Source: Pyropia yezoensis (taxonomy: Eukaryota; Rhodophyta; Bangiophyceae; Bangiales; Bangiaceae). From it: DNA of 64,000 nt. Below are positions 1-38,203 of this stretch, in pieces. A model generated the notes under the pieces. It searched no databases, was not told where the DNA came from, and saw nothing but the letters and a program-made list of their open reading frames with translations. Every line of letters begins with the position of its first letter. Position 1 is the stretch's first letter. The stretch spans positions 4,084,299 to 4,148,298 of the forward strand of contig CM020620.1 in NCBI GenBank assembly GCA_009829735.1, in the 5' to 3' direction. Both the position numbers and the translations under genes were made by a program.

Positions 1-558
1 GATCCCGGAACGGGTTAGGAAGCGAACAGGTCGCAGGACCAAATTCGACGCCCGCCGGACGCACCCCATGGGCAACCTTGTCAGCCAACATGGCCAGATA
101 CTCCTCTAGCCCATGGTCCTCCGCGATAGGCACATCAAGCCGCTCGGCCAAGTCACGTGCCAAGAACACGGCCGAAGGCCACAGCCGGCGAAGACGGCCG
201 AAGTTGTTGGCCGCGACCACAAAGGTCTCAACTTGCCCGACACGAAAGGCAAGCGCCCAAGCGTACAGACGCCGATGATAAGGGTGAAGACCACCAGCCG
301 CCCCGTACCGCAGCAACTCGTTGGACAACGACAACACCTCGTACGCCTGCCGTTCCGGCCCTTGACGACCAAAGTCAGCATGACCATGGACGTCCGACAC
401 GGACTCGCCCTCGTAGAACCGCCCGTCGATTGACGCGTCCCGGAAGTTGGGCAACGACGCCCACCGCGCGTCGCGGATACGCTGTAGAGCCAATGACCGA
501 TTGGTCCGCGCCGCCTCCATCAACGGCGGGTCCGCCACGAACCCGACACCGTCAAACA
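1..558 (-). pseudogene. Antisense ORF of element A, N-terminal part, window-truncated copy
   Basis: Minus-strand sequence equivalent to the first ~186 codons of the antisense ORF core described at 6626-9325; its 3' part lies beyond the window start. The core ATG is at 558. This copy has a 1-bp deletion near 574 relative to the other two units, which disconnects the core from the upstream open frame that runs back to the LTR (about 1488). A protein starting at 558 would be unaffected. Confidence 0.6.
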
Positions 559-712
559 TATAGGTCGCCCTTGGCTCCGATACCAGCCCACCACCGGCCG
601 TGCGGCCCCCGCACATTCATCAAGCGATGCTTCCGCCTCACCACCGCCCACCACCGGGGCAACCTCGTCTGCCATACTGGCAATAGCCACAAGCAACTGA
701 CGCCAACCGGCA

Positions 713-2153: not shown

Positions 2154-5100
2154 TTGCCTGCCCGACAAGATAGACCTAAGGTCACCAAGATACTGAGCAA
2201 AGCTCATCGACATTATGAAATCGCCGCCTGTATAGGCACGGAGCTCGCGAACACGCGGAGTATGAGACCCATCCTCGATACCGGAGCTGGCGTCAACCTC
2301 ATCCGGCCGGATGTTCTACCGCCACATGGGCGCGACTACGCCGACACGTTAACCAGTGCACCGCACATTGTTGATGCCAACGGGCAAACAATCAAGGCTC
2401 TCCAAGCCATCCACCTGTTCATCGACACCGGAGGGGCTCAAGCCTTTGAACGTTTTTACGTTACGCCCAACCTGTCGGTCAAGTGCATACTCGGGACCGA
2501 GTTCATCGATAAGCACATCGAGGCAATCCTGCCCGCCCGCAAACGTATCGTTTGGCAAGGTGCTGAAGACCATTCGATCGGCCACTCCCCAATCCTGAGC
2601 ATCCGTCAAGACGACGTCATGGAGCCCCAATGGGCCGGGGGGTCGACCAAGGTCCGTGCTTGCAAACAAACGCGCCTCAAGGGCAAGACCGAGGAATGGA
2701 TTATGGTCAGATGTGACACGCCGGGACTGGTTACTCTTCAACCAAACGCACGATTGTGCCGACACAAGACCATGGCAGTCGCCCGCGGACTCGCCACCAT
2801 CAAACCTGACGAACCATTTCTGGTTAAGGTATGCAACTTCGGGCCAGACACGGCCATCCTGCGAAAGGGCTGCGTCCTCGCGTTTGCCGAGCCCCACCTC
2901 GGGCAAGTCCTCGCCGCCCCGACGGAGGATACGGGGTCAACCGACCCAGAGACCGAACAGCCCAAACCGTCACTTGACGACATCAACCTCGACGGGGCTC
3001 CCCAACATTTGCACGCGCAAATTAAGTCGATGTTGGCCAAGCATGGCAAGATGTGGGACGGGACCCTCGGGGTCATACACGCTACAGAGCACGCCATCGT
3101 CACCCCACCTGGGGTTGCCCCTATAAGGGCGCAGCCCTATCGAACCGGTGCGTTCAAACGGGCGATCATCGTCGATCAAATCAACAAGATGTTGAAGCTC
3201 AAGGTTATTAAACCAAGTCACAGTGACTGGGCCAGTCCGGTCGTCATCGTACCGAAGAAAAATGGGAAGGCCCGGTTTTGTGTCGATTATCGACGGTTGA
3301 ACAGCATCACTAAGAAGGATGCGTACCCCCTCCCGCGTATGGAGGACTGTCTCGACTCCCTCGGAGACGCCAAAGTATTCACCTCTCTCGACTGTACCGC
3401 TGGGTACTGGCAAGTGCCATTGCGGCAGGAGGACCAAGAAAAAACGGCCTTCACAACGCACTATGGCATCTTCGACTGGACAACGATGCCATTCGGCTTG
3501 ACCAATGCCCCGGCGACGTTTCAACGTGCCCTGGATATTATACTCTCCGGACTCAAGTGGCAAGTCTGCCTCGTCTACTTAGACGACGTCATCATCTTCT
3601 TGGCAACCGCCAAACAACACATCCATGATGTAGACAAGGTCCTTACCCGACTACGGGAGGCCGGCGTGACTCTCAATCTTGAGAAGTGCAAGTGGTTTTC
3701 CAACGAGGTGGAGTACCTCGGCCACAGCATAACGCCTGGTAAACTCCACGTTCTTAACAAGAACACCGACGCCCTGCGTCAAGCAACGTTCCCCAAGACC
3801 AAGACCCAACTCAAGAGTTTTCTCGGCATGTGCAACGTCTATCGACGGTTCGTGGTAGACTTTACCAAGAGAGCCCGACCGCTAAACGCGTTGACCAAGA
3901 AAGACGTTCCACCGGACCTGTCCCCACCCTCGACCGAGGAGTTGGCGTCCTTTGAGGACCTCCGTGACGCCTTGGTGCACCCACCAATCTTGGCCTTGCC
4001 CAAGGCTGGGCGTGAGCTAACGCTCGATGTCGACGCAAGTGCGTATCAACTCGGCTGCACGTTACTCCAAACGGACGACGATGGAAAACCACAGCCACTC
4101 GGCTACTGGAGCCGCGCTCTTAACGCAGCGGAGCTCAACTACTCCACAACGGAGCGAGAATGCCTTGGCATTGTGTGGGCTGTCCTCAAGTTGAGGCACT
4201 TCCTAGAAGGACAACACTTCATAATCCGATCGGACCATCAAAGCCTTAGCTGGATATACAGCACTGCCGACTCTAGCGGTCGGTTGATGAGATGGCGTAT
4301 GCGTCTCGCAGAGTTCGACTTCGAACTGAAATACAAGCCAGGTGCTAGTCACCACCTGCCCGACTTCCTGTCCCGCGCGGACAATAACGCGATGAACGAA
4401 ACGATCAACGATGACATACCATGTCTAGCGGTGGCCCAGACGGCACACGGCGTCCAAACGGACAGGTACACAGGCACAACCGACCCCAAGCCTCTTGACT
4501 TCCATGAAGTCATTAACAAGCAACAATCGGATGATTTCTGCAAGTCGATCATCGACAGCGTCAACAACGGAGGACACAAGTCATTCTACCTTGACGACAA
4601 CAACGCACTGCGTCTCAAAACTGTGTATGGAGACCAACTGGTCATCCCCAAGTCGCAACAAGATGTCATCTTGAAGCTCCAACACATGGCCACCACGGCC
4701 GCCCACCCGGGCATGAACAAGATGTACTTCACTATGAGAACAAAGTTCTACTGGCCATCCATGATATCGGATATCCACAAGACCATCACCAATTGCACCA
4801 CTTGTGCACAGAACCGGCTAGCGTTGCGTAAGCATACGACGCCTCTGACCCTGTTCCCGGCGTCAGAACCACTGACGGAACTGTCGATCGACATCCTCGG
4901 CCCCTTGTCAGCAAGCAAAAGCGGAAATCGATTCATCTTGGTCATTACGGACCGCTTTGCAAAGCTTACAAAGTGCATCGCACTCAAGACCATCACGGCC
5001 ATCTCCGTCTCATCCGCTGTTATTGAACACTGGATAGCCTGCTATGGCCCACCGGACAAGATCTTGTCCGACCAAGGACCCCAGTTCATGTCAAACTTTT

Positions 5101-6584
5101 TCATCGCCGTGATGAAGGTACTCGGAGTCGAGACGGTGCGCACCACCGCGTACCACCCACAGACCAACGGTCAAGTAGAACGGTACAGTCGTACGATTGC
5201 TACACAACTGCGTCACTACGTGACCGAGGACCCCAAGCGCTGGGACGAGCTTCTGCCCGTCCTGACTATGGCTTACAACAGCCAACCACATCGGTCCACT
5301 GGACTAGCGCCATTCGAGCTTGTCATCCCACGACGTGTCCCTAACCTGTCGGTTCGTAACTTGCCACCAGGCACGTCCATATCCCAAAGAGGGACCCTCA
5401 ATGACGGATCGCCGCTCGCGAGAAAGCGCGAGTTCATGGCCCGACTGCGGCTGCAGATCCCGGCCGTCATCAAGGCCCTCGCCAAGACTCAACAACGTTA
5501 CAAACGTAACTTCGATGCCCACGTTGGGACGCGCAATCGTAAGATCAAGATCGGCGACTATGTCTATGCGACAAACCATCAACGAGCTAACAAGCTGCAG
5601 AGCAAGGCCGTCGGGCCATTCATGGTCGTCGACGCCGACGACTCTACCTTCGTCATTGACGTCGATGGTATCAAGAAGCGCATCAACAGCGATCATGCCA
5701 CTGCGGCACCCCGGCCGGACAACTCCAATGAGTCCACACCACACCCACTACTCGATGGGTTTGACAAACCACGGCCGGAGCCAACCGTCCACGACGAATA
5801 CGTCATCGAAAAACTCATGTCTCACCGACGGTCTGGAGATTCGCACGAATTCAAAGTCCGATGGTATGATTATACCCCCAAGGACGACACGTGGGAAGCA
5901 GTGGAAAACTTGCCACGTAACCTTGTCATTCGACATTTGCGATCCAAAAAGGTAGAAATACCTGGATACACGTGGCGGAAGCCACGAAAGCCAACCACCA
6001 AGGTTGCTCTGGCAACTGGACTTGTTGCGCTCACTGGCGCAGCCGCCGCTATTTGGCAACCGCACATACTCGCGGTCTACGTCGACCCATGGGGGGTGGT
6101 ACAGGCTAATGTCCAATGGGACAACGCAGACCGCTCGGTCCAGGAAAACATCCCTGTGTACTACATGAAGTCAACACTGCCAGAGGCATGCCGGAACTTC
6201 ACCTCCCCCACATGGGGACCACTCTGGGAACTCCCAGAACTCACCAAGCACTATGGCCAGTTGAGCTACCAGCCGGAGAGGCATGTCACTGCCTCGGAGC
6301 AGAACTCACAAGGCATCTGCCTAAGGGTACCCCCCACCCACACCCTTGACCAAGTGGTCACAGAGCTACAATCCAGTCCAAAGGACACCCTCCTGGTCAC
6401 CCCACGCTGGGAACATGCCTCATGGTTCTCAAAAGCCAAACGGCTCTGTCATGAGTCGAAGATACTCCGGCCAGTCCTAACATCGGACAAAAAGACAACA
6501 GAATGGGCCAGGGCTGCCTTCATGTTCAAACACGAACAAACAAACAACAAGCCAAAGGGCCAACACAAGTACAAACAAGACTAA
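2154..6584 (+). CDS. pol: Pol polyprotein of element A, unit 1 (1476 codons)
   Basis: Aspartic protease (DTGAG near residue 41), reverse transcriptase (YLDD at residues 475-478 after [10 protein letters not shown]), RNase H (DVDAS...), integrase zinc finger (H...H...C...C from about residue 850), integrase core with D913, D973 and E1009 (D-35-E), and a chromodomain at about 1214-1270, so a chromovirus. An extra ~200 residues follow, with a hydrophobic segment at about 1283-1301 and a Trp/Pro-rich region of unknown role. The frame opens without a nearby ATG, so expression by -1 frameshift from gag is likely. All catalytic residues I can see are intact. Confidence 0.93.
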   Translation: MPARQDRPKVTKILSKAHRHYEIAACIGTELANTRSMRPILDTGAGVNLIRPDVLPPHGRDYADTLTSAPHIVDANGQTIKALQAIHLFIDTGGAQAFERFYVTPNLSVKCILGTEFIDKHIEAILPARKRIVWQGAEDHSIGHSPILSIRQDDVMEPQWAGGSTKVRACKQTRLKGKTEEWIMVRCDTPGLVTLQPNARLCRHKTMAVARGLATIKPDEPFLVKVCNFGPDTAILRKGCVLAFAEPHLGQVLAAPTEDTGSTDPETEQPKPSLDDINLDGAPQHLHAQIKSMLAKHGKMWDGTLGVIHATEHAIVTPPGVAPIRAQPYRTGAFKRAIIVDQINKMLKLKVIKPSHSDWASPVVIVPKKNGKARFCVDYRRLNSITKKDAYPLPRMEDCLDSLGDAKVFTSLDCTAGYWQVPLRQEDQEKTAFTTHYGIFDWTTMPFGLTNAPATFQRALDIILSGLKWQVCLVYLDDVIIFLATAKQHIHDVDKVLTRLREAGVTLNLEKCKWFSNEVEYLGHSITPGKLHVLNKNTDALRQATFPKTKTQLKSFLGMCNVYRRFVVDFTKRARPLNALTKKDVPPDLSPPSTEELASFEDLRDALVHPPILALPKAGRELTLDVDASAYQLGCTLLQTDDDGKPQPLGYWSRALNAAELNYSTTERECLGIVWAVLKLRHFLEGQHFIIRSDHQSLSWIYSTADSSGRLMRWRMRLAEFDFELKYKPGASHHLPDFLSRADNNAMNETINDDIPCLAVAQTAHGVQTDRYTGTTDPKPLDFHEVINKQQSDDFCKSIIDSVNNGGHKSFYLDDNNALRLKTVYGDQLVIPKSQQDVILKLQHMATTAAHPGMNKMYFTMRTKFYWPSMISDIHKTITNCTTCAQNRLALRKHTTPLTLFPASEPLTELSIDILGPLSASKSGNRFILVITDRFAKLTKCIALKTITAISVSSAVIEHWIACYGPPDKILSDQGPQFMSNFFIAVMKVLGVETVRTTAYHPQTNGQVERYSRTIATQLRHYVTEDPKRWDELLPVLTMAYNSQPHRSTGLAPFELVIPRRVPNLSVRNLPPGTSISQRGTLNDGSPLARKREFMARLRLQIPAVIKALAKTQQRYKRNFDAHVGTRNRKIKIGDYVYATNHQRANKLQSKAVGPFMVVDADDSTFVIDVDGIKKRINSDHATAAPRPDNSNESTPHPLLDGFDKPRPEPTVHDEYVIEKLMSHRRSGDSHEFKVRWYDYTPKDDTWEAVENLPRNLVIRHLRSKKVEIPGYTWRKPRKPTTKVALATGLVALTGAAAAIWQPHILAVYVDPWGVVQANVQWDNADRSVQENIPVYYMKSTLPEACRNFTSPTWGPLWELPELTKHYGQLSYQPERHVTASEQNSQGICLRVPPTHTLDQVVTELQSSPKDTLLVTPRWEHASWFSKAKRLCHESKILRPVLTSDKKTTEWARAAFMFKHEQTNNKPKGQHKYKQD

Positions 6585-6625
6585 CACAAGCCGTACGGCA
6601 ACACCCTCACCTCCCAACCCCCCCC

Positions 6626-9325
6626 TCAACGGCGACGTCGCGAGCCCTCGTCAAAAGACGAACTGCGTGAGCGCACACGCCGAGCCGGCGCACGAGGCGC
6701 ATCCTCCTCCTCGTCATCCGACATCGGTCGACGACGAACGCCAAGAATGGCACCAACGTCAACACGACGAGGACTCGCAGCCCGAGCCTCCACCGAGGGC
6801 GCACGACGCAGCTCACTGAGCAAGCTATCGCGAATGCGAGACGGATCCGCCAAACGGGAGACCGTCAACACCAAAGCCTCAACGGCCTCCGACTCAGTCA
6901 TCCCACTGACCCGACGAAGAACGTCATCAATCTCCACGGTCTGACGAGACCAAGCAATGGCCAACGCCCCAGCCGTTGCGCCACGAGGCACCACTTGCCC
7001 AGCCAAGGCACCCACCCGGTCAGTACCCAACAGGGCAACAGCACCCACACGGGCCCACTCCGACGGCCAGATCGGCTCCGTGCCACCGGTCCCACCGGAC
7101 ACAGGGGCAACCACACCAGGGTTAACACGGTCACTTGACCCCGCACCGGCCACCGGCGACAACGACCGAGACGCGTCCCGCACCCGACGACCGGTCTCAC
7201 GACCACGACCGGGACCACGACCCGGTCCGGACGACTCGTCACCACCCTCCCACGAGGCGTCATACTTCCAATCAAACGCGCCGCACGGCTGACGAAGAAC
7301 GAAGCCATACTTGGCCGTCGCGTCCAACTTGACGTACACCTGGCGAGCCGCCTTGGTGCGCTCATCACGTCGGCGGACGTCGGCGACAATGGTTGTCCAC
7401 GGGAAGACGGCGTGTGCATCACGCATACGGTGGTACGTCGCAAGACGCTCCTCACCCCCGGGCCCATCGGCCAGCCGCGACACGTCCAACCCGTCGAACC
7501 ACTCGGTCACTTGGTCCGGCAACCAGCAAAAAAGTCCGTCATGGACGAGCCAATGCACCCAAGCCGCCAAGGCAAAGCAGAAAAACTCGTCGTACACGAC
7601 GCCCCAAGCCGCGTTATCTGCGTCCTTCAGCCCACTGGCGACGTACGACAATGCCGCCGGCGTCTCCATGTACGGTCCGTACTCAACCCACCGCGATGGG
7701 CGTGATGGAAGCCAACGCTTCAGGTCGAAGAACGGGCGTGCGCGCCCCAGGCTGGACGCCCAAGCCGGCGCCAAAAGGCCGCGACGCTCAAAGGCCGCCA
7801 GGTCCCACGACCTACGAAGACGAATCGACGTCGTCGGATCCCGGAACGGGTTAGGAAGCGAACAGGTCGCAGGACCAAATTCGACGCCCGCCGGACGCAC
7901 CCCATGGGCAACCTTGTCAGCCAACATGGCCAGATACTCCTCTAGCCCATGGTCCTCCGCGATAGGCACATCAAGCCGCTCGGCCAAGTCACGTGCCAAG
8001 AACACGGCCAAAGGCCACAGCCGGCGAAGACGGCCGAAGTTGTTGGCCGCGACCACAAAGGTCTCAACTTGCCCGACACGAAAGGCAAGCGCCCAAGCGT
8101 ACAGACGCCGATGATAAGGGTGAAGACCACCAGCCGCCCCGTACCGCAGCAACTCGTTGGACAACGACAACACCTCGTACGCCTGCCGTTCCGGCCCTTG
8201 ACGACCAAAGTCAGCATGACCATGGACGTCCGACACGGACTCGCCCTCGTAGAACCGCCCGTCGATTGACGCGTCCCGGAAGTTGGGCAACGACGCCCAC
8301 CGCGCGTCGCGGATACGCTGTAGAGCCAATGACCGATTGGTCCGCGCCGCCTCCATCAACGGCGGGTCCGCCACGAACCCGACACCGTCAAACATATAGG
8401 TCGCCCTTGAGCTCCGATACCAGCCCACCACCGGCCGTGCGGCCCCCGCACATTCATCAAGCGATTCTTTCGCCTCACCACCGCCCACCACCGGGGCAAC
8501 CTCGTCTGCCATACTGGCAATAGCCACAAGCAACTGACGCCAACCGGCAAGACGCGACGCCCTTGACCACTCGTGCCCCTTGGCCGACCGCGCCGCTTGG
8601 CCGCCCTTGCCGTTCGACGGCCGCACTTGGCCGCCCTCGCCCCGACGCCCTTGGTCTCTCGTGCCGCCTAACCGCCCTTGCCGCAAGACGCGACGCCCTT
8701 GACCACTCGTGCCCCTTGGCCGACCGCGCCGCTTGGCCGCCCTTGCCGTTCGACGGCCGCACTTGGCCGCCCTCGCGCCGACGCCCTTGGTCGCTCGTGC
8801 CGCGTGGCCGCCCTTGCCGCCCGGCCGACGCCCTTGGTCGACCGCGCCGCGTGGCCGCCCTTGCCGCCAGGCCGATGCCCCTGACCGCTCGCGCCGCGTG
8901 GCCGCCCTTGCCGTGCCGCCACGCCTGCCGCACGGCCGCACTGGCCCCTTAGCCGCACAGGCCGATCTCGGCCGCCAGCCAACGGCAGCCGCGTAGTGCC
9001 CCTCGGCGGGGCGTAACGAGCCAACTGGCCAGCCACCGGCCACGACCGACGGTCGAGCCGGCGCACCCGTCAAAAGACGTGCCGACCGACGGCCAAGTGC
9101 TCCGCGGCACCGACGTGCCAGACACTTATAGTGCCCTGCCAACGAGGCGTCCGGCCAGGCATGCAAGTCAGCGCCCGACGGCCATACGGCCCGGTGCTTC
9201 CAGAACGACGACGCGGACGCGACCCCTCCACCGCACGCTGGCAGGTAGCCACATCCGGCCGCCCGGCCGCACCGGATCGGACCTCGCCGGGACGGCTCGA
9301 AGTTCGCAACGGGGGTATGTAGCAT
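6626..9325 (-). CDS. Antisense ORF of element A, intact 899-codon copy
   Basis: Runs convergent to pol, 41 bp past its stop, and fills the region between pol and the 3' LTR. The longest frame starts at ATG 9325, inside the first bases of LTR 2. Order: ~280 residues of Gly/Arg/Lys-rich repeats, then a Trp-rich core (internal ATG at 8395, 590 codons), then an acidic stretch (DDEEED) and a basic Ser/Arg tail (RSRSSS...RRRR). The core shares spaced residues with the antisense ORF of element B (W-L-P, H, W..I, RR, ARQ). I recognise no known family. It may be nuclear and RNA- or DNA-binding, by its charge. Whether the repeat part is translated is uncertain. Confidence 0.65.
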   Translation of the reverse strand: MLHTPVANFEPSRRGPIRCGRAAGCGYLPACGGGVASASSFWKHRAVWPSGADLHAWPDASLAGHYKCLARRCRGALGRRSARLLTGAPARPSVVAGGWPVGSLRPAEGHYAAAVGWRPRSACAAKGPVRPCGRRGGTARAATRRERSGASAWRQGRPRGAVDQGRRPGGKGGHAARATKGVGARAAKCGRRTARAAKRRGRPRGTSGQGRRVLRQGRLGGTRDQGRRGEGGQVRPSNGKGGQAARSAKGHEWSRASRLAGWRQLLVAIASMADEVAPVVGGGEAKESLDECAGAARPVVGWYRSSRATYMFDGVGFVADPPLMEAARTNRSLALQRIRDARWASLPNFRDASIDGRFYEGESVSDVHGHADFGRQGPERQAYEVLSLSNELLRYGAAGGLHPYHRRLYAWALAFRVGQVETFVVAANNFGRLRRLWPLAVFLARDLAERLDVPIAEDHGLEEYLAMLADKVAHGVRPAGVEFGPATCSLPNPFRDPTTSIRLRRSWDLAAFERRGLLAPAWASSLGRARPFFDLKRWLPSRPSRWVEYGPYMETPAALSYVASGLKDADNAAWGVVYDEFFCFALAAWVHWLVHDGLFCWLPDQVTEWFDGLDVSRLADGPGGEERLATYHRMRDAHAVFPWTTIVADVRRRDERTKAARQVYVKLDATAKYGFVLRQPCGAFDWKYDASWEGGDESSGPGRGPGRGRETGRRVRDASRSLSPVAGAGSSDRVNPGVVAPVSGGTGGTEPIWPSEWARVGAVALLGTDRVGALAGQVVPRGATAGALAIAWSRQTVEIDDVLRRVSGMTESEAVEALVLTVSRLADPSRIRDSLLSELRRAPSVEARAASPRRVDVGAILGVRRRPMSDDEEEDAPRAPARRVRSRSSSFDEGSRRRR
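8550..8947. repeat. GC-rich in-frame tandem repeat of element A, copy 2
   Basis: Same repeat block as at 713-1110, displaced by 7837 bp. In this unit it is fully in frame with the antisense ORF. Confidence 0.7.
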
Positions 9326-9724
9326 ATCCGCCCCTTGTACCGAATTCCGGTATTTACTGGCTTGTAGCCCCCCTGACTGGTGGCCCCAGCCTTGTTGGCA
9401 TGGGTCCGCTTGTGGCTCGCCCTTTGGGGGACTACTTTTGTTTTGTATTGTTTATCTGTCCTTGCCTTGGAGGGATCTTTTATATTGATTGCTATGCTCG
9501 TAGCGATCGGCCGTCCGGCCTCCGCTCAGTCGCTCGACCGGCATATTGTTTTCGCCCTTATCTGCGACGTGGGGACTCGCCGCTGCCTTCGGCCGGCTTG
9601 CTCCCCATCGAACGTCCAGGAGCTAAAGGTCTGTCTTCTTTGCCTCTACGGTAATAGCTTCCTCTTTGCCTTCCGGGCGCCGGTCGGTCCCATATCCTTT
9701 ATATTGGGTAACACATATTCCACA
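9318..9724 (+). mobile_element. LTR of element A, copy 2 (407 bp)
   Basis: Shared LTR: 3' LTR of unit 1 and 5' LTR of unit 2. It differs from copy 1 by very few substitutions (for example G to A in the cctccgctcRgtcg stretch). Near identity implies recent amplification or conversion. Confidence 0.85.
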
Positions 9725-9990: not shown

Positions 9991-12900
9991 TTGCCTGCCC
10001 GACAAGATAGACCTAAGGTCACCAAGATACTGAGCAAAGCTCATCGACATTATGAAATCGCCGCCTGTATAGGCACGGAGCTCGCGAACACGCGGAGTAT
10101 GAGACCCATCCTCGATACCGGAGCTGGCGTCAACCTCATCCGGCCGGATGTTCTACCGCCACATTGGCGCGACTACGCCGACACGTTAACCAGTTCACCG
10201 CACATTGTTGATGCCAACGGGCAAACAATCAAGGCTCTCCAAGCCATCCACTTGTTCATCGACACCGGAGGGGCTCAAGCCTTTGAACGTTTTTACGTTA
10301 CGCCCAACCTGTCGGTCAAGTGCATACTCGGGACCGAGTTCATCGATAAGCTCATCGAGGCAATCCTGCCCGCCCGCAAACGTATCGTTTGGCAAGGTGC
10401 TGAAGACCATTCGATCGGCCACTCCCCAATCCTGAGCATCCGTCAAGACGACGTCATGGAGCCCCAATGGGCCGGGGGGTCGACCAAGGTCCGTGCTTGC
10501 AAACAAACGCGCCTCAAGGGCAAGACCGAGGAATGGATTATGGTCAGATGTGACACGCCGGGACTGGTTACTCTTCAACCAAACGCACGATTGTGCCGAC
10601 ACAAGACCATGGCAGTCGCCCGCGGACTCGCCACCATCAAACCTGACGAACCATTTCTGGTTAAGGTATGCAACTTCGGGCCAGACACGGCCATCCTGCG
10701 AAAGGGCTGCGTCCTCGCGTTTGCCGAGCCCCACCTCGGGCAAGTCCTCGCCGCCCCGACGGAGGATACGGGGTCAACCGACCCAGAGACCGAACAGCCC
10801 AAACCGTCACTTGACGACATCAACCTCGACGGGGCTCCACAACATTTGCACGCGCAAATTAAGTCGATGTTCGCCAAGCATGGCAAGATGTGGGACGGGA
10901 CCCTCGGGGTCATACACGCTACAGAGCACGCCATCGTCACGCCACCTGGGGTTGCCCCTATAAGGGCGCAGCCCTATCGAACCGGTGCGTTCAAACGGGC
11001 GATCATCGTCGATCAAATCAACAAGATGCTGAAGCTCAAGGTTACTAAACCAAATCACAGTGACTGGGCCAGTCCGGTCGTCATCGTACCGAAGAAAAAT
11101 GGGAAGGCCCGGTTTTGTGTCGATTATCGACGGTTGAACAGCATCACTAAGAAGGATGCGTACCCCCTCCCGCGTATGGAGGACTGTCTCGACTCCCTCG
11201 GAGACGCCAAAGTATTCACCTCTCTCGACTGTACCGCTGGGTACTGGCAAGTGCCATTGCGGCAGGAGGACCAAGAAAAAACGGCCTTCACAACGCACTA
11301 TGGCATCTTCGACTGGACAACGATGCCATTCGGCTTGACCAATGCCCCGGCGACGTTTCAACGTGCCCTGGATATTATACTCTCCGGACTCAAGTGGCAA
11401 GTCTGCCTCGTCTACTTAGACGACGTCATCATCTTCTTGGCAACCGCCAAACAACACATCCATGATGTAGACAAGGTCCTTACCCGACTACGGGAGGCCG
11501 GCGTGACTCTCAATCTTGAGAAGTGCAAGTGGTTTTCCAACGAGGTGGAGTACCTCGGCCACAGCATAACGCCTGGTAAACTCCACGTTCTTAACAAGAA
11601 CACCGACGCCCTGCGTCAAGCAACGTTCCCCAAGACCAAGACCCAACTCAAGAGTTTTCTCGGCATGTGCAACGTCTATCGACGGTTCGTGGTAGACTTT
11701 ACCAAGAGAGCCCGACCGCTAAACGCGTTGACCAAGAAAGACGTTCCACCGGACCTGTCCCCACCCTCGACCGAGGAGTTGGCGTCCTTTGAGGACCTCC
11801 GTGACGCCTTGGTGCACCCACCAATCTTGGCCTTGCCCAAGGCTGGGCGTGAGCTAACGCTCGATGTCGACGCAAGTGCGTATCAACTCGGCTGCACGTT
11901 ACTCCAAACGGACGACGACGGAAAACCACAGCCACTCGGCTACTGGAGCCGCGCTCTTAACGCAGCGGAGCTCAACTACTCCACAACGGAGCGAGAATGC
12001 CTTGGCATTGTGTGGGCTGTCCTCAAGTTGAGGCACTTCCTAGAAGGACAACACTTCATAATCCGATCGGACCATCAAAGCCTTAGCTGGATATACAGCA
12101 CTGCCGACTCTAGCGGTCGGTTGATGAGATGGCGTATGCGTCTCGCAGAGTTTGACTTCGAACTGAAATACAAGCCAGGTGCTAGTCACCACCTGCCCGA
12201 CTTCCTGTCCCGCGCGGACAATAACGCGATGAACGAAGCGATCAACGATGACATACCATGTCTAGCGGTGGCCCAGACGGCACACGGCGTCCAAACGGAC
12301 AGGTACACAGGCACAACCGACCCCAAGCCTCTTGACTTCCATGAAGTCATTAACAAGCAACAATCGGATGATTTCTGCAAGTCGATCATCGACAGCGTCA
12401 ACAATGGAGGACACAAGTCATTCTACCTTGACGACAACAACGCACTGCGTCTCAAAACTGTGTATGGAGACCAACTGGTCATCCCCAAGTCGCAACAAGA
12501 TGTCATCTTGAAGCTCCAACACATGGCCACCACGGCCGCCCACCCGGGCATGAACAAGATGTACTTCACTATGAGAACAAAGTTCTACTGGCCATCCATG
12601 ATATCGGATATCCACAAGACCATCACCAATTGCACCACTTGTGCACAGAACCGGCTAGCGTTGCGTAAGCATACGACGCCTCTGACCCTGTTCCCGGCGT
12701 CAGAACCACTGACGGAACTGTCGATCGACATCCTCGGCCCCTTGTCAGCAAGCAAAAGCGGAAATCGATTCATCTTGGTCATTACGGACCGCTTTGCAAA
12801 GCTTACAAAGTGCATCGCACTCAAGACCATCACGGCCATCTCCGTCTCATCCGCTGTTATTGAACACTGGATAGCCTGCTATGGCCCACCGGACAAGATC

Positions 12901-14421
12901 TTGTCCGACCAAGGACCCCAGTTCATGTCAAACTTTTTCATCGCCGTGATGAAGGTACTCGGAGTCGAGACGGTGCGCACCACCGCGTACCACCCACAGA
13001 CCAACGGTCAAGTCGAACGGTACAGTCGTACGATTGCTACACAACTGCGTCACTACGTGACCGAGGACCCCAAGCGCTGGGACGAGCTTCTGCCCGTCCT
13101 GACTATGGCTTACAACAGCCAACCACATCGGTCCACTGGACTAGCGCCATTCGAGCTTGTCATCCCACGACGTGTCCCTAACCTGTCGGTTCGTAACTTG
13201 CCACCAGGCACGTCCATATCCCAAAGAGGGACCCTCAATGACGGATCGCCGCTCGCGAGAAAGCGCGAGTTCATGGCCCGACTGCGGCTGCAGATCCCGG
13301 CCGTCATCAAGGCCCTCGCCAAGACTCAACAACGTTACAAACGTAACTTCGATGCCCACGTTGGGACGCGCAATCGTAAGATCAAGATCGGCGACTATGT
13401 CTATACGACAAACCATCAACGAGCTAACAAGCTGCAGAGCAAGGCCGTCGGGCCATTCATGGTCGTCGACGCCGACGACTCTACCTTCGTCATTGACGTC
13501 GATGGTATCAAGAAGCGCATCAACAGCGATCATGCCACTGCGGCACCCCGGCCGGACAACTCCAATGAGTCCACACCACACCCACTACTCGATGGGTTTG
13601 ACAAACCACGGCCGGAGCCAACCGTCCAAGACGAATACGTCATCGAAAAACTCATGTCTCACCGACGGTCTGGAGATTCGCACGAATTCAAAGTCCGATG
13701 GTATGATTATACCCCCAAGGACGACACGTGGGAAGCAGTGGAAAACTTGCCACGTAACCTTGTCATTCGACATTTGCGATCCAAAAAGGTAGAAATACCT
13801 GGATACACGTGGCGGAAGCCACGAAAGCCAACCACCAAGGTTGCTCTGGCAACTGGACTTGTTGCGCTCACTGGCGCAGCCGCCGCTATTTGGCAACCGC
13901 ACATACTCGCGGTCTACGTCGACCCATGGGGGGTGGTACAGGCTAATGTCCAATGGGACAACGCAGACCGCTCGGTCCAGGAAAACATCCCTGTGTACTA
14001 CATGAAGTCAACACTGCCAGAGGCATGCCGGAACTTCACCTCCCCCACATGGGGACCACTCTGGGAACTCCCAGAACTCACCAAGCACTATGGCCAGTTG
14101 AGCTACCAGCCGGAGAGGCATGTCACTGCCTCGGAGCAGAACTCACAAGGCATCTGCCTAAGGGTACCCCCCACCCACACCCTTGACCAAGTGGTCACAG
14201 AGCTACAATCCAGTCCAAAGGACACCCTCCTGGTCACCCCACGCTGGGAACATGCCTCATGGTTCTCAAAAGCCAAACGGCTCTGTCATGAGTCGAAGAT
14301 ACTCCGGCCAGTCCTAACATCGGACAAAAAGACAACAGAATGGGCCAGGGCTGCCTTCATGTTCAAACACGAACAAACAAACAACAAGCCAAAGGGCCAA
14401 CACAAGTACAAACAAGACTAA
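9991..14421 (+). CDS. pol: Pol polyprotein of element A, unit 2 (1476 codons)
   Basis: Same length and domain order as unit 1 (protease, RT, RNase H, integrase, chromodomain, hydrophobic/Trp-rich extension), fully open, with RT YLDD and integrase D-D-35-E retained. It differs by scattered single substitutions, for example Gly to Trp and Ala to Ser within the first 70 codons, with no indels. Intact reading in both units suggests the array formed recently. Confidence 0.92.
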   Translation: MPARQDRPKVTKILSKAHRHYEIAACIGTELANTRSMRPILDTGAGVNLIRPDVLPPHWRDYADTLTSSPHIVDANGQTIKALQAIHLFIDTGGAQAFERFYVTPNLSVKCILGTEFIDKLIEAILPARKRIVWQGAEDHSIGHSPILSIRQDDVMEPQWAGGSTKVRACKQTRLKGKTEEWIMVRCDTPGLVTLQPNARLCRHKTMAVARGLATIKPDEPFLVKVCNFGPDTAILRKGCVLAFAEPHLGQVLAAPTEDTGSTDPETEQPKPSLDDINLDGAPQHLHAQIKSMFAKHGKMWDGTLGVIHATEHAIVTPPGVAPIRAQPYRTGAFKRAIIVDQINKMLKLKVTKPNHSDWASPVVIVPKKNGKARFCVDYRRLNSITKKDAYPLPRMEDCLDSLGDAKVFTSLDCTAGYWQVPLRQEDQEKTAFTTHYGIFDWTTMPFGLTNAPATFQRALDIILSGLKWQVCLVYLDDVIIFLATAKQHIHDVDKVLTRLREAGVTLNLEKCKWFSNEVEYLGHSITPGKLHVLNKNTDALRQATFPKTKTQLKSFLGMCNVYRRFVVDFTKRARPLNALTKKDVPPDLSPPSTEELASFEDLRDALVHPPILALPKAGRELTLDVDASAYQLGCTLLQTDDDGKPQPLGYWSRALNAAELNYSTTERECLGIVWAVLKLRHFLEGQHFIIRSDHQSLSWIYSTADSSGRLMRWRMRLAEFDFELKYKPGASHHLPDFLSRADNNAMNEAINDDIPCLAVAQTAHGVQTDRYTGTTDPKPLDFHEVINKQQSDDFCKSIIDSVNNGGHKSFYLDDNNALRLKTVYGDQLVIPKSQQDVILKLQHMATTAAHPGMNKMYFTMRTKFYWPSMISDIHKTITNCTTCAQNRLALRKHTTPLTLFPASEPLTELSIDILGPLSASKSGNRFILVITDRFAKLTKCIALKTITAISVSSAVIEHWIACYGPPDKILSDQGPQFMSNFFIAVMKVLGVETVRTTAYHPQTNGQVERYSRTIATQLRHYVTEDPKRWDELLPVLTMAYNSQPHRSTGLAPFELVIPRRVPNLSVRNLPPGTSISQRGTLNDGSPLARKREFMARLRLQIPAVIKALAKTQQRYKRNFDAHVGTRNRKIKIGDYVYTTNHQRANKLQSKAVGPFMVVDADDSTFVIDVDGIKKRINSDHATAAPRPDNSNESTPHPLLDGFDKPRPEPTVQDEYVIEKLMSHRRSGDSHEFKVRWYDYTPKDDTWEAVENLPRNLVIRHLRSKKVEIPGYTWRKPRKPTTKVALATGLVALTGAAAAIWQPHILAVYVDPWGVVQANVQWDNADRSVQENIPVYYMKSTLPEACRNFTSPTWGPLWELPELTKHYGQLSYQPERHVTASEQNSQGICLRVPPTHTLDQVVTELQSSPKDTLLVTPRWEHASWFSKAKRLCHESKILRPVLTSDKKTTEWARAAFMFKHEQTNNKPKGQHKYKQD

Positions 14422-14462: not shown

Positions 14463-16232
14463 TCAACGGCGACGTCGCGAGCCCTCGTCAAAAGACGAAC
14501 TGCGTGAGCGCACACGCCGAGCCGGCGCACGAGGCGCATCCTCCTCCTCGTCATCCGACATCGGTCGACGACGAACGCCAAGAATGGCACCAACGTCAAC
14601 ACGACGAGGACTCGCAGCCCGAGCCTCCACCGAGGGCGCACGACGCAGCTCACTGAGCAAGCTATCGCGAATGCGAGACGGATCCGCCAAACGGGAGACC
14701 GTCAACACCAAAGCCTCAACGGCCTCCGACTCAGTCATCCCACTGACCCGACGAAGAACGTCATCAATCTCCACGGTCTGACGAGACCAAGCAATGGCCA
14801 ACGCCCCAGCCGTTGCGCCACGAGGCACCACTTGCCCAGCCAAGGCACCCACCCGGTCAGTACCCAACAGGGCAACAGCACCCACACGGGCCCACTCCGA
14901 CGGCCAGATCGGCTCCGTGCCACCGGTCCCACCGGACACAGGGGCAACCACACCAGGGTTAACACGGTCACTTGACCCCGCACCGGCCACCGGCGACAAC
15001 GACCGAGACGCGTCCCGCACCCGACGACCGGTCTCACGACCACGACCGGGACCACGACCCGGTCCGGACGACTCGTCACCACCCTCCCACGAGGCGTCAT
15101 ACTTCCAATCAAACGCGCCGCACGGCTGACGAAGAACGAAGCCATACTTGGCCGTCGCGTCCAACTTGACGTACACCTGGCGAGCCGCCTTGGTGCGCTC
15201 ATCACGTCGGCGGACGTCGGCGACAATGGTTGTCCACAGGAAGACGGCGTGTGCATCACGCATACGGTGGTACGTCGCAAGACGCTCCTCACCCCCGGGC
15301 CCATCGGCCAGCCGCGACACGTCCAACCCGTCGAACCACTCGGTCACTTGGTCCGGCAACCAGCAAAAAAGTCCGTCATGGACGAGCCAATGCACCCAAG
15401 CCGCCAAGGCAAAGCAGAAAAACTCGTCGTACACGACGCCCCAAGCCGCGTTATCTGCGTCCTTAAGCCCACTGGCGACGTACGACAATGCCGCCGGCGT
15501 CTCCATGTACGGTCCGTACTCAACCCACCGCGATGGGCGTGATGGAAGCCAACGCTTCAGGTCGAAGAACGGGCGTGCGCGCCCCAGGCTGGACGCCCAA
15601 GCCGGCGCCAAAAGGCCGCGACGCTCAAAGGCCGCCAGGTCCCACGACCTACGAAGACGAATCGACGTCGTCGGATCCCGGAACGGGTTAGGAAGCGAAC
15701 AGGTCGCAGGACCAAATTCGACGCCCGCCGGACGCACCCCATGGGCAACCTTGTCAGCCAACATGGCCAGATACTCCTCTAGCCCATGGTCCTCCGCGAT
15801 AGGCACATCAAGCCGCTCGGCCAAGTCACGTGCCAAGAACACGGCCAAAGGCCACAGCCGGCGAAGACGGCCGAAGTTGTTGGCCGCGACCACAAAGGTC
15901 TCAACTTGCCCGACACGAAAGGCAAGCGCCCAAGCGTACAGACGCCGATGATAAGGGTGAAGACCACCAGCCGCCCCGTACCGCAGCAACTCGTTGGACA
16001 ACGACAACACCTCGTACGCCTGCCGTTCCGGCCCTCGACGACCAAAGTCAGCATGACCATGGACGTCCGACACGGACTCGCCCTCGTAGAACCGCCCGTC
16101 GATTGACGCGTCCCGGAAGTTGGGCAACGACGCCCACCGCGCGTCGCGGATACGCTGTAGAGCCAATGACCGATTGGTCCGCGCCGCCTCCATCAACGGC
16201 GGGTCCGCCACGAACCCGACACCGTCAAACAT
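14463..16232 (-). CDS. Antisense ORF core of element A, unit 2
   Basis: Core antisense protein from ATG at 16232 (590 codons), nearly identical to the unit-1 core, with substitutions such as Pro to Leu. The extended frame that reaches the LTR (ATG 17162) is broken here by an in-frame TAG at 16311-16313, so the long form exists intact in only one of the visible units while the core remains open. Confidence 0.62.
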   Translation of the reverse strand: MFDGVGFVADPPLMEAARTNRSLALQRIRDARWASLPNFRDASIDGRFYEGESVSDVHGHADFGRRGPERQAYEVLSLSNELLRYGAAGGLHPYHRRLYAWALAFRVGQVETFVVAANNFGRLRRLWPLAVFLARDLAERLDVPIAEDHGLEEYLAMLADKVAHGVRPAGVEFGPATCSLPNPFRDPTTSIRLRRSWDLAAFERRGLLAPAWASSLGRARPFFDLKRWLPSRPSRWVEYGPYMETPAALSYVASGLKDADNAAWGVVYDEFFCFALAAWVHWLVHDGLFCWLPDQVTEWFDGLDVSRLADGPGGEERLATYHRMRDAHAVFLWTTIVADVRRRDERTKAARQVYVKLDATAKYGFVLRQPCGAFDWKYDASWEGGDESSGPGRGPGRGRETGRRVRDASRSLSPVAGAGSSDRVNPGVVAPVSGGTGGTEPIWPSEWARVGAVALLGTDRVGALAGQVVPRGATAGALAIAWSRQTVEIDDVLRRVSGMTESEAVEALVLTVSRLADPSRIRDSLLSELRRAPSVEARAASPRRVDVGAILGVRRRPMSDDEEEDAPRAPARRVRSRSSSFDEGSRRRR

Positions 16233-16386
16233 ATAGGTCGCCCTTGGGCTCCGATACCAGCCCACCACCGGCCGTGCGGCCCCCGCACATTCATCAAGCG
16301 ATGCCTCCGCCTAACCACCGCCCACCACCGGGGCAACCTCGTCTGCCATACTGGCAATAGCCACAAGCAGCTGACGCCAACCGGCA

Positions 16387-32176: not shown

Positions 32177-32276
32177 ACAGAGGTAAACTTTACCTCCGGG
32201 TGCACCCGGGTGTAGGGGGCCCTCTGTCTCAGAGGAACGGTGGACTTGGACCGTGTCATACGGATCGTTAGCCAAC

Positions 32277-34223
32277 ATGGCTAGCTCGGACCCCCCGTCG
32301 TCCGGGGAGTACACGGGTGACGCACGTACTTCAGTGCCTTTGAATACTGGTGAGACACAGGTGGGTTTACCTGGGGTCGCAGAGGGACTAGAGGTCCCTC
32401 AAGCCAGCAGGACTGGAAGTGCGGGCGGGCAACAGGCCACCCCGACTCAGTCGGGAGTTCACTCGGGTGACACTTCTGACGTGGGTGGGCCGAAGTCTGG
32501 CCACCGCGTGGTATACTCAACGGGAACGTCCCAAGGGGTGAGGACTGTCCCCGCGAGTTCCACTCGGGTTGGAGCCAACTTTGGCATGGAGCCATCGCCA
32601 ACTAGGCTTTCGGAGGACGGCGGACCTCCGTTGGTCGGCGATGGGCTCGCGCCCATGCCCCCGGTTGAGACCCCTGAGGAACGTGGTTACCCCTCAGGTG
32701 GACTCCCGGAGGTGGACCGAGACTCAACTGGAGTCGTCAATCCACTCCTCGCGGAAACTGTCCGTCGGGAGGCGACCACTGTGTTGCGGCAGACTTTGCC
32801 GGACCTGGTGGTCACGATGACGAATACTATTCTGAATCAGATTGTGGCGAGTTTGCCAGATGGCCTTAATGTCCAGACCGGATTGGGGCCTTCGAGCCCG
32901 CAGGCGCAGGGGGTGCCCCCCCTGACACCTATCTCGGGTCGCCCTGAACAGGGGGCGACCCCTGTGACTCCCAACGAGGGAGCCACACCATACTCGGTGG
33001 GGCGTACGCCCTTCATGGGGGAGTTCCCCCCGACAACACCGGCGGCTACACCAAGCGCGCCGCGCCGGACTACAGGCACTGTGGGTGAACTTACCCCAGT
33101 GCCACAGCGGCTGCTCCCTCAACGTGAGGTGCCGCCCAAGATCCAGGTAGCCAACCCGGTCTACCAGAGGATCTTTGACTGTGAGACCTACGCCCTCCAC
33201 AACAAGTCGGTGGCGTATGGTCCTGACCAGGCCCGAGCCATGGGCCGTGCCAAGAAGAATGCACTTCACTCTTTTGGGCACAAAGCGGAGTGGGATGGAA
33301 CTCCCCCCCTCCGTGTCTTTGAGTTCCTACGTCGTTTCACAAAAGCCTGTGACGACAATGCCATAAGTGAAGGCATGGCTTTTTACATGCTACAGGAGTT
33401 TACGAAGGGAGACCTGCGGACAGAACTTATGTCCGTCATGCCCAGCTCCTCAAGTGGAGGCGCTGGGGAGGTGACGTCCTATTTGGAGCTCGTCAACTGG
33501 TTGTTGAGGGCCATGGTTGATGAAGCGGCGTTGGCTTCTCAAGTCGAGGAGTTTACGCAAGCCCATCAGGAAGAGGCGGAGGACGAGTTGTCCTTTGCGG
33601 AGCGAGTCCGTAAGCTCAACAATCTTTGTGGGTTTCTTCATCCACAAGCTGTGGTGAAGAGTCGGTTTGTGGAAGGACTCCACTGGTCAGTCCGGATGGA
33701 GACCCGGGAGCATAACACTGCCCGGGCGACCCTGGCCGAGTTGGCTAGGTTCGCCTACCGCAGAGGCGAGGCCTACCGCAAGTTGCGGGAAGAACAACGC
33801 CAGGAGCGTCAGGCCGAGTTGGCCAAGGAACGGGAAGAGGCGCGCCAGGCCAGAGAGTTGCGAGAGGCACGCCGAATCCGCAAGGAGAGGGTGGTAGCTG
33901 CCGTGGGAACTTCCCAAGGTACCTCGTCGTCTTCCCCAGTTGGGAAGACCCCTCCGGGAACTGATCATCGGTGTTGGAACTGCAACTCCGATGGTCACTG
34001 GGCATATGATTGCCCCAAGTTGAGTAAACGCATCCAACAGCTTGTTAGGAATGCGAGTAAGAAGTCGGCTACGAACGAAGTGCGTTCACGCCGCGAGGGT
34101 GGGTCTCGACCAGTGGTGGCGGTCGCCACACCCTCGACGGAGGGGGCGGACACGTCGTCCTCGGACTCGTCGTCGTCCCCTTCGCCCTCAGATTCGGACG
34201 CCAAGTCGGCGGGAAACGAATGA
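32277..34223 (+). CDS. gag: Gag of element B, unit 2
   Basis: 648 codons from ATG 32277 (context CCAACATGG). A Gly/Pro/Thr-rich N-terminal third, then a retrotransposon capsid-like helical region (about residues 340-500: EFLRRFTKACDDN, ELVNWLLRAM, ELSFAERVRKLNNL), a highly charged Arg/Glu helix (about 510-560), a CCHC zinc knuckle (33972-34013) and a Ser/Asp-rich acidic tail. The stop TGA (34221-34223) overlaps the pol ATG (ATGA) and lies one codon after a GGGAAAC slippery site. Confidence 0.9.
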   Translation: MASSDPPSSGEYTGDARTSVPLNTGETQVGLPGVAEGLEVPQASRTGSAGGQQATPTQSGVHSGDTSDVGGPKSGHRVVYSTGTSQGVRTVPASSTRVGANFGMEPSPTRLSEDGGPPLVGDGLAPMPPVETPEERGYPSGGLPEVDRDSTGVVNPLLAETVRREATTVLRQTLPDLVVTMTNTILNQIVASLPDGLNVQTGLGPSSPQAQGVPPLTPISGRPEQGATPVTPNEGATPYSVGRTPFMGEFPPTTPAATPSAPRRTTGTVGELTPVPQRLLPQREVPPKIQVANPVYQRIFDCETYALHNKSVAYGPDQARAMGRAKKNALHSFGHKAEWDGTPPLRVFEFLRRFTKACDDNAISEGMAFYMLQEFTKGDLRTELMSVMPSSSSGGAGEVTSYLELVNWLLRAMVDEAALASQVEEFTQAHQEEAEDELSFAERVRKLNNLCGFLHPQAVVKSRFVEGLHWSVRMETREHNTARATLAELARFAYRRGEAYRKLREEQRQERQAELAKEREEARQARELREARRIRKERVVAAVGTSQGTSSSSPVGKTPPGTDHRCWNCNSDGHWAYDCPKLSKRIQQLVRNASKKSATNEVRSRREGGSRPVVAVATPSTEGADTSSSDSSSSPSPSDSDAKSAGNE

Positions 34224-34256
34224 CCGTTGGAGCTGGTCGTCCGAAGCTCACAACGG
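34211..34256 (+). promoter_or_regulatory. Canonical -1 ribosomal frameshift signal, gag to pol, element B
   Basis: Slippery heptamer GGGAAAC (34211-34217) read gcG GGA AAC, fitting X XXY YYZ exactly. Then 6 nt of spacer (34218-34223, including the gag TGA), then an 11-bp stem with one bulged A: arms 34224-34234 and 34245-34256, 10-nt loop. Pol is in the -1 frame. Together these make frameshifting much more likely than reinitiation at the overlapping ATG, though both remain possible. Confidence 0.78.
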
Positions 34257-37200: not shown

Positions 37201-38203
37201 CCCACTGGCAGAGATCACGGCCATGTCGGTCGTGTCAGCCTTCCTAGATCACTGGGTTGCCGCGTATGGCATTCCGGATAGTACACTATCGGACAATGGA
37301 CCGCAATTTGCGTCTGTACTGTTTCAAGGAGTGCTGGATATGTTGGGGGTTAAGGCAAACTATGCCACCCCCTACCACCCACAAACTAATGGGCAGGTGG
37401 AGCGCTTCAACAAAACTATTGTTAGGCAGCTGCGCCATTATGTGAGTGAGCACGTGAAGACGTGGGACCAATACATTTCTATTCTGACCACTGCCTACAA
37501 TTCGCAGGTTCACTCATCTACCGGGGAAGTACCCCTCGCTTTTGTGACCCCCCGTCGCGTGCGGTCTATTGCCGTGCGGCGGCCGCTCCCAACTAGGGAG
37601 GATGGTGGCAGTACGCCCACTCCTACTGAGAGTAAGGCGGAGTTCGCTGCTAGGCTTGAAAACCTCATCCCTAAAGTCAGGGCTGAGATGGACAAAGCAC
37701 AAAAGCGCTACAAGCGTACCTTTGACAAAAAGGTGCGCAACGCCAAGCATGTCCCCGAGCAGGGTGACTGGGTATTGGTCCACTCACACACCCCAACTGG
37801 GGGTAAGTTGGTGTTCCAGACGAAGGGGCCGTACCAGGTCCTTCGTACTGATGGGCGGCGCTTCACCATCGAAAGTGACGATGGGGTCCGCACAGTGAAC
37901 GGACAGGACGTGGTCAAAGTTGCACCACCGCCTGCAGGCGACCCAGCTTGGGCGCGTGCTTTGAAAACGTGGCGCCTGCCCTCGCTGCCTGCAGCCAAAC
38001 AGGGCCCGCAGGAGTACGTGTTCGACAAGTTCATCGACCACGGCTGGGATGAGGATACTGACCGCCTCATGTTGAGGGTGCGTTGGTTTGGCTACAAAGC
38101 CAAGGATGATACGTGGGAGTATGTGGAGGACCTTCCTGCTGAGAAGGTCCGGGCGTACTGTGCCCGGAACGAGATAGACCCTAACAGTCCTCCCTCAACG
38201 TGA
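34220..38203 (+). CDS. pol: Pol polyprotein of element B, unit 2 (1327 codons)
   Basis: Protease (DTGSG near residue 81), RT ([10 protein letters not shown], then YLED at residues 524-527), RNase H (DVDAS, TELEGLA, SDH-type), integrase zinc finger from H896, catalytic D965, D1025 and E1061 (D-35-E), a GPY-like region, and a C-terminal chromodomain at about 1263-1315 (EYVFDKFID, RVRWFGY, DTWEYVEDL). The RT active site has Glu for the first Asp of YxDD, which should abolish or cripple polymerase activity. Unit 1 and element A have YLDD. Otherwise the frame is intact. It ends at the chromodomain, with no extension as in A. Confidence 0.93.
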   Translation: MTVGAGRPKLTTAASAKWAKRTNQPCRILRRPKGVRPPRVGLPKNVNPRRVIAVLTGENFQVAGRVQLAPGRACCVRIVLDTGSGASLIRKSLLPKGMRLQRWKSKADHLIDINGGVLPIVGAVTLPTRLGTHEVDVTYGVVENISVPLLLGTPYVVTQVPLICGPEYWVKLMNGETIPILGKGKSVAPVTVSQSKPVCSVREGFTATLRLARKVMLPPNSVAHVDVVTDYAGNGLVHPNPRLARKHQVHVALGTMDSKAGVPWRIQVMNLSSSPKFFKSGAKFGYIDQHEGPVVAVTLSAGASSDPKSGKEKHQAKSAASPRPQVNMEGVPPRLRVQVERLLDQYHKLWDGQLGLMRATQHRIELKPGAPPIRQQPYRGGPRSRALVKEQVARMEALDVIEASNAEWASPVVIVPKVDGTPRFCIDYRKLNESTVKDSYPLPRMDDCLDSLGEANVFSTLDCNAGYWQIPIAPEDRHKTTFTCHCGTYQCKRLPFGLCNAPATFQRAMDMILAGVRWQICLVYLEDIIVFSRSPEEHIGHLGQVFKLLADAGVSIKASKCHLFTQEVEYLGHVVRPGRLSVNEKNLRAIRKAQYPRTQTPMRSFLGMCNVYRRFTKGFANVAKPLNELVSSTLPKNLPPPSRVEQESFETLRDLLLKPPILAIPRLGGHYILDVDASYDQLGCVLLQQQPDKEYLPVGYFSEGLNSAEKNYGVTELEGLAVVWAVTSLRHYLEGEKFLIRCDHRALQFIFKTDCTNTRLNRWRVRLAPFNFDIEYRPGRQHALADGLSRVPTEGLDTTPVDEDIPIVGVVTRSGQALNPEAPGNKKYLPLSLDEVVKAQAEDPFCKSQRDTLDTVAETRFFLGDDGLLMRRGVFQGTEQLVVPASLKDSILEREHNAPTGGHLGSSKLYQTLRTRYYWPSMVVDIYSWVAACTSCAQNRLMERRPTTAMLLFPAKEPFAALAMDILGPLPVTEEGNQYLLVICDRFTKLTRAIPLAEITAMSVVSAFLDHWVAAYGIPDSTLSDNGPQFASVLFQGVLDMLGVKANYATPYHPQTNGQVERFNKTIVRQLRHYVSEHVKTWDQYISILTTAYNSQVHSSTGEVPLAFVTPRRVRSIAVRRPLPTREDGGSTPTPTESKAEFAARLENLIPKVRAEMDKAQKRYKRTFDKKVRNAKHVPEQGDWVLVHSHTPTGGKLVFQTKGPYQVLRTDGRRFTIESDDGVRTVNGQDVVKVAPPPAGDPAWARALKTWRLPSLPAAKQGPQEYVFDKFIDHGWDEDTDRLMLRVRWFGYKAKDDTWEYVEDLPAEKVRAYCARNEIDPNSPPST

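Follow-up and report, generated by a model that had tools for sequence, protein, structure and literature searches.

Antisense genes behind pol in two Ty3/gypsy families

We analysed a 64,000-nucleotide stretch of the genome of the red alga Pyropia yezoensis (nori), located at G000:C3:4084299-4148298 on the assembly and called the window below, which holds elements of three Ty3/gypsy families, A, B and C. Families A and B carry a long open reading frame (ORF) on the strand opposite to pol, between pol and the 3' long terminal repeat (LTR), and this antisense gene is the subject of the present study (Table 1). It lies tail to tail with pol, at a distance of 41 bp in A and 111 bp in B, and its start faces the 3' LTR. 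The first-pass annotation of this DNA had described long antisense ORFs filling this space in both families, and this description holds. The open frames are not due to chance: in 2000 base shuffles neither gene ever remained free of stops, the expected number being about 16-17.

The starts of the two genes differ from those first proposed. The A gene had been made to start at 9325, in keeping with a mechanically defined ORF of 899 codons that begins inside the LTR. The first 268 codons of this ORF align poorly with the related genomic copies L024-L027 (91-118 codons aligned, nonsynonymous divergence dN 0.30-0.59, ratio of nonsynonymous to synonymous divergence, dN/dS, 0.40-0.76), the segments downstream have low dN/dS, and the Pyropia vietnamensis homolog P0004 begins at a Met matching window position 8512. 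Hence, the A gene starts near codon 272, with the Met at 8512. Codons 1-271 are an unconserved extension over tandem repeats (8547-8925; 136-bp and related repeats) situated between the gene start and the LTR, and this extension may serve the antisense gene as a 5' leader or as a promoter. For B, the ORF had been drawn from 38315 to 40429; the gene starts at 40258, at the Met with which the homolog P0006 begins, and no tandem repeats of note separate this start from the LTR.

Table 1. Features of families A and B in the window
Feature	Position	Strand	Evidence or remark
A antisense gene, 628 codons, array copy 1	6626..8512	-	dN/dS, only conserved frame, relatives
Non-conserved open upstream extension of A ORF	8513..9325	-	Over tandem repeats and first 8 bases of LTR
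A core stretch matching B	7262..7720	-	tblastn of B against window, 22.8% identity
Second A antisense gene in array	14463..16349	-	99% match; one TAG at about residue 13, near 5' end; open stretch 14466-16310
Third (leftmost) A antisense copy, cut by window edge	1..675	-	tblastn; frame broken at about 574-589; continues left of window
B antisense gene, 647 codons	38315..40258	-	P0006 has same Met; best codon-usage score of six frames; at least 63 copies open
B core stretch matching A	39167..39649	-	tblastn of A against window
A-family pol	2154..6584	+	Pfam: reverse transcriptase, RNase H, integrase, chromodomain, weak protease match
A-family pol, second array copy	9991..14421	+	Pfam
A-family LTR 3' of copy 1, 407 bp, TG...CA	9318..9724	+	BLASTN with L009 LTR
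Other A-family LTRs	1481-1887, 17155-17561		BLASTN with L009 LTR
B-family gag with zinc knuckle	32253..34223	+	Pfam PF00098
B-family pol	34220..38203	+	Pfam; chromodomain match below cut-off
B-family 3' LTR, TGTGGC...GCCACA, purine tract before	40600..41067	+	Self-BLAST, sequence reading

Both families had been called chromoviruses. In keeping with this, the pol chromodomain of A matches PF00385 at 34.4 bits, above the cut-off of 25.1; the corresponding match in B pol (19.5 bits, E 0.00096) is below this cut-off. The genome (107.5 Mb) was searched with each antisense protein, so that copies devoid of the antisense gene fall outside the resulting lists. For A, the best 51 of 14,990 candidates were scored, which gives a lower bound, and a second search, with a query lacking the N-terminal ~50 residues, scored 76 of 195 candidates; among the matches listed, 19 of the 20 best have no stop. 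The antisense gene adjoins pol in the opposite sense in 17 of 18 fetched A regions holding it, the 18th (L027) being without a matching pol end, and five copies (L016, L017, L018, L020 and L021) combine a pol open over all 1476 codons with an antisense gene free of stops, in agreement with the expectation that other intact copies would carry the gene. For B, the best 63 of 13,349 candidates were scored; the gene is open in all 63 listed matches and its protein is ~100% identical among them, which suggests a very recent burst. Family B may thus be recently active and suited to expression studies.

The three A copies of the window form a tandem array (1-17568; unit of 7837 bp) in which neighbouring units have LTRs in common and most of gag is missing. 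As read in the sequence, the LTR of each unit is fused straight to that end of gag which holds the zinc knuckle, as though the gag of one element had received the insertion of another and the unit had then been repeated. Elsewhere in the genome, the A copy L009 has two LTRs that are 99.3% alike, a 5-bp target duplication read at its ends and a gag frame with a CCHC knuckle at its end; judging from the pol-end spacing, ~2.2 kb of its pol is absent. Self-comparison of L009-L028 found the A LTR pair in L009 only, L022 showing another long repeat. Copy L028 (G000:C1:20405200-20415100) is a mosaic: its similarity to A is mostly 88-95% over the end of gag and the greater part of pol, mostly 67-76% from about window position 13631 onward, and again 94% in the LTR. 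This pattern suggests that a 3' module with the antisense gene was exchanged between subfamilies.

The A antisense frame is under purifying selection

We compared the A antisense gene with the subfamily copies L024-L028 and with the older copies L029-L035. Over the whole gene, dN/dS between A subfamilies is 0.13-0.26, far from neutrality, the first-pass annotation having named neutral values as evidence against a conserved gene; for pol, the ratio is 0.10-0.11 in comparison with L024-L026 and 0.15 with L028 (dS was not computable for L027). Along the 899-codon ORF, the ratio against L024-L027 is 0.13-0.14 for codons 269-480, 0.09-0.12 for codons 481-700 and 0.19-0.25 for codons 701-899, and the same segments give 0.15, 0.19 and 0.30 against L028. 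DNA alignments of 6626-8512 with L024-L028, read in six frames, single out the antisense frame, with dN/dS of 0.13-0.20 and 0, 1, 0 and 0 stops in L024-L027 and 3 in L028. In the frame mirroring the antisense codons, dN/dS is 0.28-0.37 and stops number 14-20; in the remaining four frames dN/dS is 1.4-3.2, all five non-gene frames containing at least 8 stops. Divergence at the first, second and third codon positions is 0.088-0.099, 0.064-0.073 and 0.291-0.302 for L024-L027, and 0.187, 0.157 and 0.447 for L028. A chance open frame in G+C-rich DNA is ruled out by this six-frame control and the base shuffles.

Constraint depends on the age of the copies. Among the older copies L029-L035, dN/dS is 0.15-0.26 between subfamilies and 0.31-1.22 within them, and the antisense gene of 14 recent copies, pooled, gives 0.76; pol of recent copies is also weakly constrained (mostly 0.4-1.1). 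The A antisense frame is under purifying selection between subfamilies and decays near-neutrally in recent copies, the pattern of a gene selected during transposition and decaying after insertion. Since its protein is kept intact by selection, it probably helps the elements to copy themselves. The pattern is established for A only: the listed B copies are too alike in protein for dN/dS to be informative.

The A and B proteins probably have a core in common

A BLASTP alignment of the A and B proteins scores 41.2 bits (E 2e-7 for one comparison; 37 of 162 columns identical). Their Smith-Waterman score is 94, the shuffle maximum being 67 for 1000 full and 78 for 1000 local shuffles. Four relatives of the A protein, P0003, P0004, P0005 and P0009, score 88, 80, 70 and 97 against B; the scores of A, P0003 and P0004 were each reached by none of 1000 full and none of 1000 local shuffles and that of P0009 by none of 2000 full shuffles, while one of 1000 full and one of 1000 local shuffles reached that of P0005. 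When the 286 open stretches of at least 100 residues in the window are ranked, B comes directly after the three A-gene stretches for all three A-type queries, scoring 94 against 62 and 97 against 55 for the next best stretch and, with a small margin, 80 against 73 for P0004.

The common core spans ~125-160 columns at 23% identity, and the N- and C-terminal parts of A gave nothing clearly above shuffles when compared with B. Thus, of the spaced residues first seen over ~250 positions, the likeness itself proved significant but its extent was overstated. Both proteins had also been said to end in an acidic patch and a Ser/Arg-rich tail. This ending occurs in window A, P0005, P0009 and P0013, four of the six A-type proteins whose sequence extends to the C-terminus; P0003 and P0004 do not have it. 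In B the stretches are arranged differently (basic, acidic, basic), and homology to the A tail is not detectable. Where conserved, the ending consists of the acidic patch followed by a short Ser/Arg-rich motif, which could be a phosphorylation or docking site.

Identity between the pol proteins of A and B is 41% (1272 columns), and that of each to family C pol is 30-32%. An ancestral accessory gene inherited by both families, as the first-pass annotation had proposed, is therefore supported: the genes occupy the same place and strand, their proteins match significantly in pairwise comparison, the A gene is under purifying selection, and the pols of A and B are nearer to each other than to C. 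Common origin of the two cores is likely, short of proof.

For family C, scoring the best 86 of 4821 candidates listed at least 86 genome matches, many of them open. In four fetched regions, the pol frame ends at about 1350-1400 (locus coordinates), and a stretch common to the copies, which we take to be the LTR, lies some 370-500 bases beyond. Downstream of pol, these four regions have no antisense gene like those of A and B; the best matches of an A/B profile there had E of 0.01 and 0.085, the former (L037) on the sense strand, well beyond the presumed LTR. The space between pol and the presumed LTR in these regions is too short for such a gene. The antisense gene is thus not general to Ty3/gypsy elements here. 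The family C element of the window (41672-44869) has its pol broken into two frames.

Relatives and domain searches

Searches for protein relatives, each scoring the 8000 candidates with the most words in common, retrieved hypothetical proteins of P. vietnamensis at 43-47% identity to A, as well as metagenome or EukProt sequences. The A-type set comprises 11 rows (window A, P0003-P0005 and P0007-P0013), the relatives being known here from protein sequences. For B, a single, near-identical relative was retrieved. No relatives were found in viral contigs, prokaryote genomes, plasmids or solved structures.

The earlier statement that no named family is known for the protein also held. No Pfam or NCBIfam family scored above cut-off, no PHROG match was convincing (one at E 0.051) and Rfam gave nothing; weak Pfam matches lay far below the cut-offs (helicase-associated domain 0.066, phage attachment 0.071 and, in P0003, glycosyltransferase 0.026). 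Chromodomain, PHD finger and bZIP had no Pfam match in the antisense proteins. Transposase_28 (PF04195) had none in 13 proteins (A, B and P0003-P0013), and a genome search with it to E 10 returned nothing, a weak test, as the control genomes gave no match or, at E 10, a weak one below the cut-off in a single genome. We also considered a displaced or inverted Gag and rejected it: Smith-Waterman scores against B gag were not clearly above shuffles, which scored as high in 9 of 300 cases for A (score 52), 8 of 300 for P0005, 49 of 300 for P0004 and 145 of 300 for B.

Comparison with known antisense genes of retroelements

The arrangement is one already known from plant Ty3/gypsy lineages, as the first-pass annotation had stated: antisense ORFs of LTR elements have been described as a class from plants and also from a fungus (PMC7264820, PMC11963269). 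Like the plant genes termed aORF-3R (Grande GENE23, RIRE2, Retand ORF4 and PvRetro13), the nori genes are antisense between pol and the 3' LTR (LTR at 9318 in A and 40600 in B). Presence in most copies and conservation like that of the element proteins apply to A, and for B presence extends to at least 63 listed copies. The nori antisense proteins are best classed as an unnamed family within this class of antisense accessory ORFs.

Among the known systems, GENE23 of maize Grande has its own antisense promoter and encodes a nuclear protein (PMC7264820). All Retand clusters have antisense coding regions, 97% of them with Transposase_28, and about half have tandem repeats in the antisense region, as nori A does (PMC11963269). 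Retand differs in being a non-chromovirus whose protein carries Transposase_28, a domain not matched by the nori proteins, whereas family A includes a chromodomain. REM1 of Chlamydomonas has a GPY/F motif and a chromodomain in a reverse frame (PMC2774666). It resembles the nori case in being a Ty3/gypsy element of an alga that has a reading frame on the reverse strand next to pol, and differs in that the nori antisense proteins have no Pfam match to these domains, the chromodomain of A being in the sense pol. CrREM1 (Perez-Alegre et al., 2005) reportedly also has a PHD finger in its reverse frame. Boty of Botrytis cinerea, a fungal LTR element with an antisense ORF, is comparable by citation rather than by sequence (PMC7264820). 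HBZ of human T-cell leukaemia virus type 1 (HTLV-1) is similar by analogy only, as an antisense protein gene near the 3' LTR of a retroelement. HBZ carries a bZIP domain, for which the nori proteins have no Pfam match.

As for other algae, Ectocarpus has chromodomain Gypsy elements unrelated to chromoviruses, and a 2025 Bostrychia genome paper is cited for accessory genes in red-algal DNA transposons (PMC12477816). Among the papers listed from the open-licence literature, no title or abstract opening mentioned a gene of this kind from LTR elements of red algae. LTR retrotransposons have repeatedly turned out to carry antisense accessory genes, which are unexplained, and nori adds an independent, red-algal case, with a clear chromodomain in one family and protein-level selection across several subfamilies. 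It can therefore be used to ask whether such proteins, though of unrelated families, have a common function.

A proposed role in the nucleus

By analogy with the antisense genes of Grande (PMC7264820) and Retand, the role that fits best would be that of a nuclear accessory protein, ancestral to both families, which regulates LTR expression or takes part in nucleic-acid handling or integration; we regard this proposal as evenly poised. An antisense mRNA would start from a putative promoter within the LTR or in the interval that separates it from the ORF, and would encode a protein of ~630-650 residues with a conserved core, a low-complexity Ser/Arg/Pro linker of the kind present in A-type proteins, and no clear membrane segment. 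This protein would enter the nucleus, its presumed site of action, and aid the replication of its own element there, either by regulating LTR expression or by handling or integrating the element's nucleic acid, as proposed for Grande and Retand.

Several results weigh against this proposal. No DNA-binding or chromatin domain scored above the Pfam cut-off in the antisense proteins, and a simple pattern for basic clusters detected a single one in A and three in B, but gave no match in P0004 or P0009. With codon usage trained on A pol, the A antisense frame scores -0.196 per codon, whereas the best frame reaches -0.061. As to descent from a common ancestor, the profile-profile match that the first-pass annotation had called for was obtained with E of 1.9e-5 and 1.2e-5, though the hhalign probabilities are moderate (77.6% and 81.1%), and the hmmsearch match of the A profile to B (E 0.0029) was equalled by 1 of 999 shuffled B sequences.

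Instead of regulating expression, the protein could act as a cofactor of structure or of the particle, for example as a chaperone, by association with the capsid or by aiding nuclear import of the integration complex, which is possible although we favour it less. A protein of good size with no clear membrane segment, whose middle (codons 481-700) is conserved as strongly as pol, would suit such a function, and since the family C copies examined have pol but no antisense gene, the cofactor would be lineage-specific. However, being encoded antisense, it does not arise together with Gag and Pol from the genomic RNA, and it has no clear resemblance to Gag.

That the protein counteracts host small-RNA or chromatin silencing appears unlikely. 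The recent burst suggested by the open, near-identical B copies would agree with it, and overlapping sense and antisense RNAs could feed RNA interference, so that a counter-measure would pay; yet no sequence feature points in this direction, and dN/dS is low, with no arms-race signal over whole segments. Slightly less credible still is an independent origin of the A and B genes in the same place, their likeness being due to chance or convergence. Such an origin would agree with a similarity confined to the short core, with the moderate profile tests and with the shuffles that reached the P0005 score, but it leaves unexplained why no shuffle reached the scores of A and P0009 and why B follows the three A genes for each query, be it by a small margin for P0004.

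It is highly improbable that only the antisense RNA matters, through double-stranded RNA control, and that the open frame is incidental: antisense non-coding transcripts are described for other retroelements (PMC7264820), but in A the divergence at third codon positions exceeds that at first and second ones about three- to fourfold (L024-L027), and stops are nearly absent. The usual hydropathy threshold for a membrane segment is 1.6. The highest 19-residue values are 1.44 for A, 1.23 for B, 1.53 for P0004 and 1.65 for P0009, so that A and B have no clear membrane segment and P0009 is borderline; an Env-like gene, which the position between pol and 3' LTR and the P0009 stretch might recall, is hardly tenable given the antisense orientation and the values of A, B and P0004.

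On a wider reading, which we consider unlikely, the gene might be an old regulatory module of red-algal Ty3/gypsy elements, predating the split of A and B and maintained ever since through selection on the protein. Its core would then either have a novel fold and a novel activity in the nucleus, or be a diverged relative of the plant Retand antisense proteins. In the latter case, antisense regulators would be an ancestral Ty3/gypsy feature in the plant-algal lineage.

Other features of the window

Two regions, 50000-52000 and 56000-60000, have a G+C content of ~75-80% and long overlapping open frames on both strands; the sole ORF tried there, 51832-53610 at the edge of the high-G+C region, had no Pfam match. 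The window also contains two pairs of long direct repeats that are more than 99% identical, 26476-31164 with 31690-36384 (region 26472-36384) and 45783-52566 with 53067-59868 (region 45783-59868). Runs of N separate the copies of each pair, the window containing 1000 N overall, and the repeats are possibly duplications made by the assembly around gaps.

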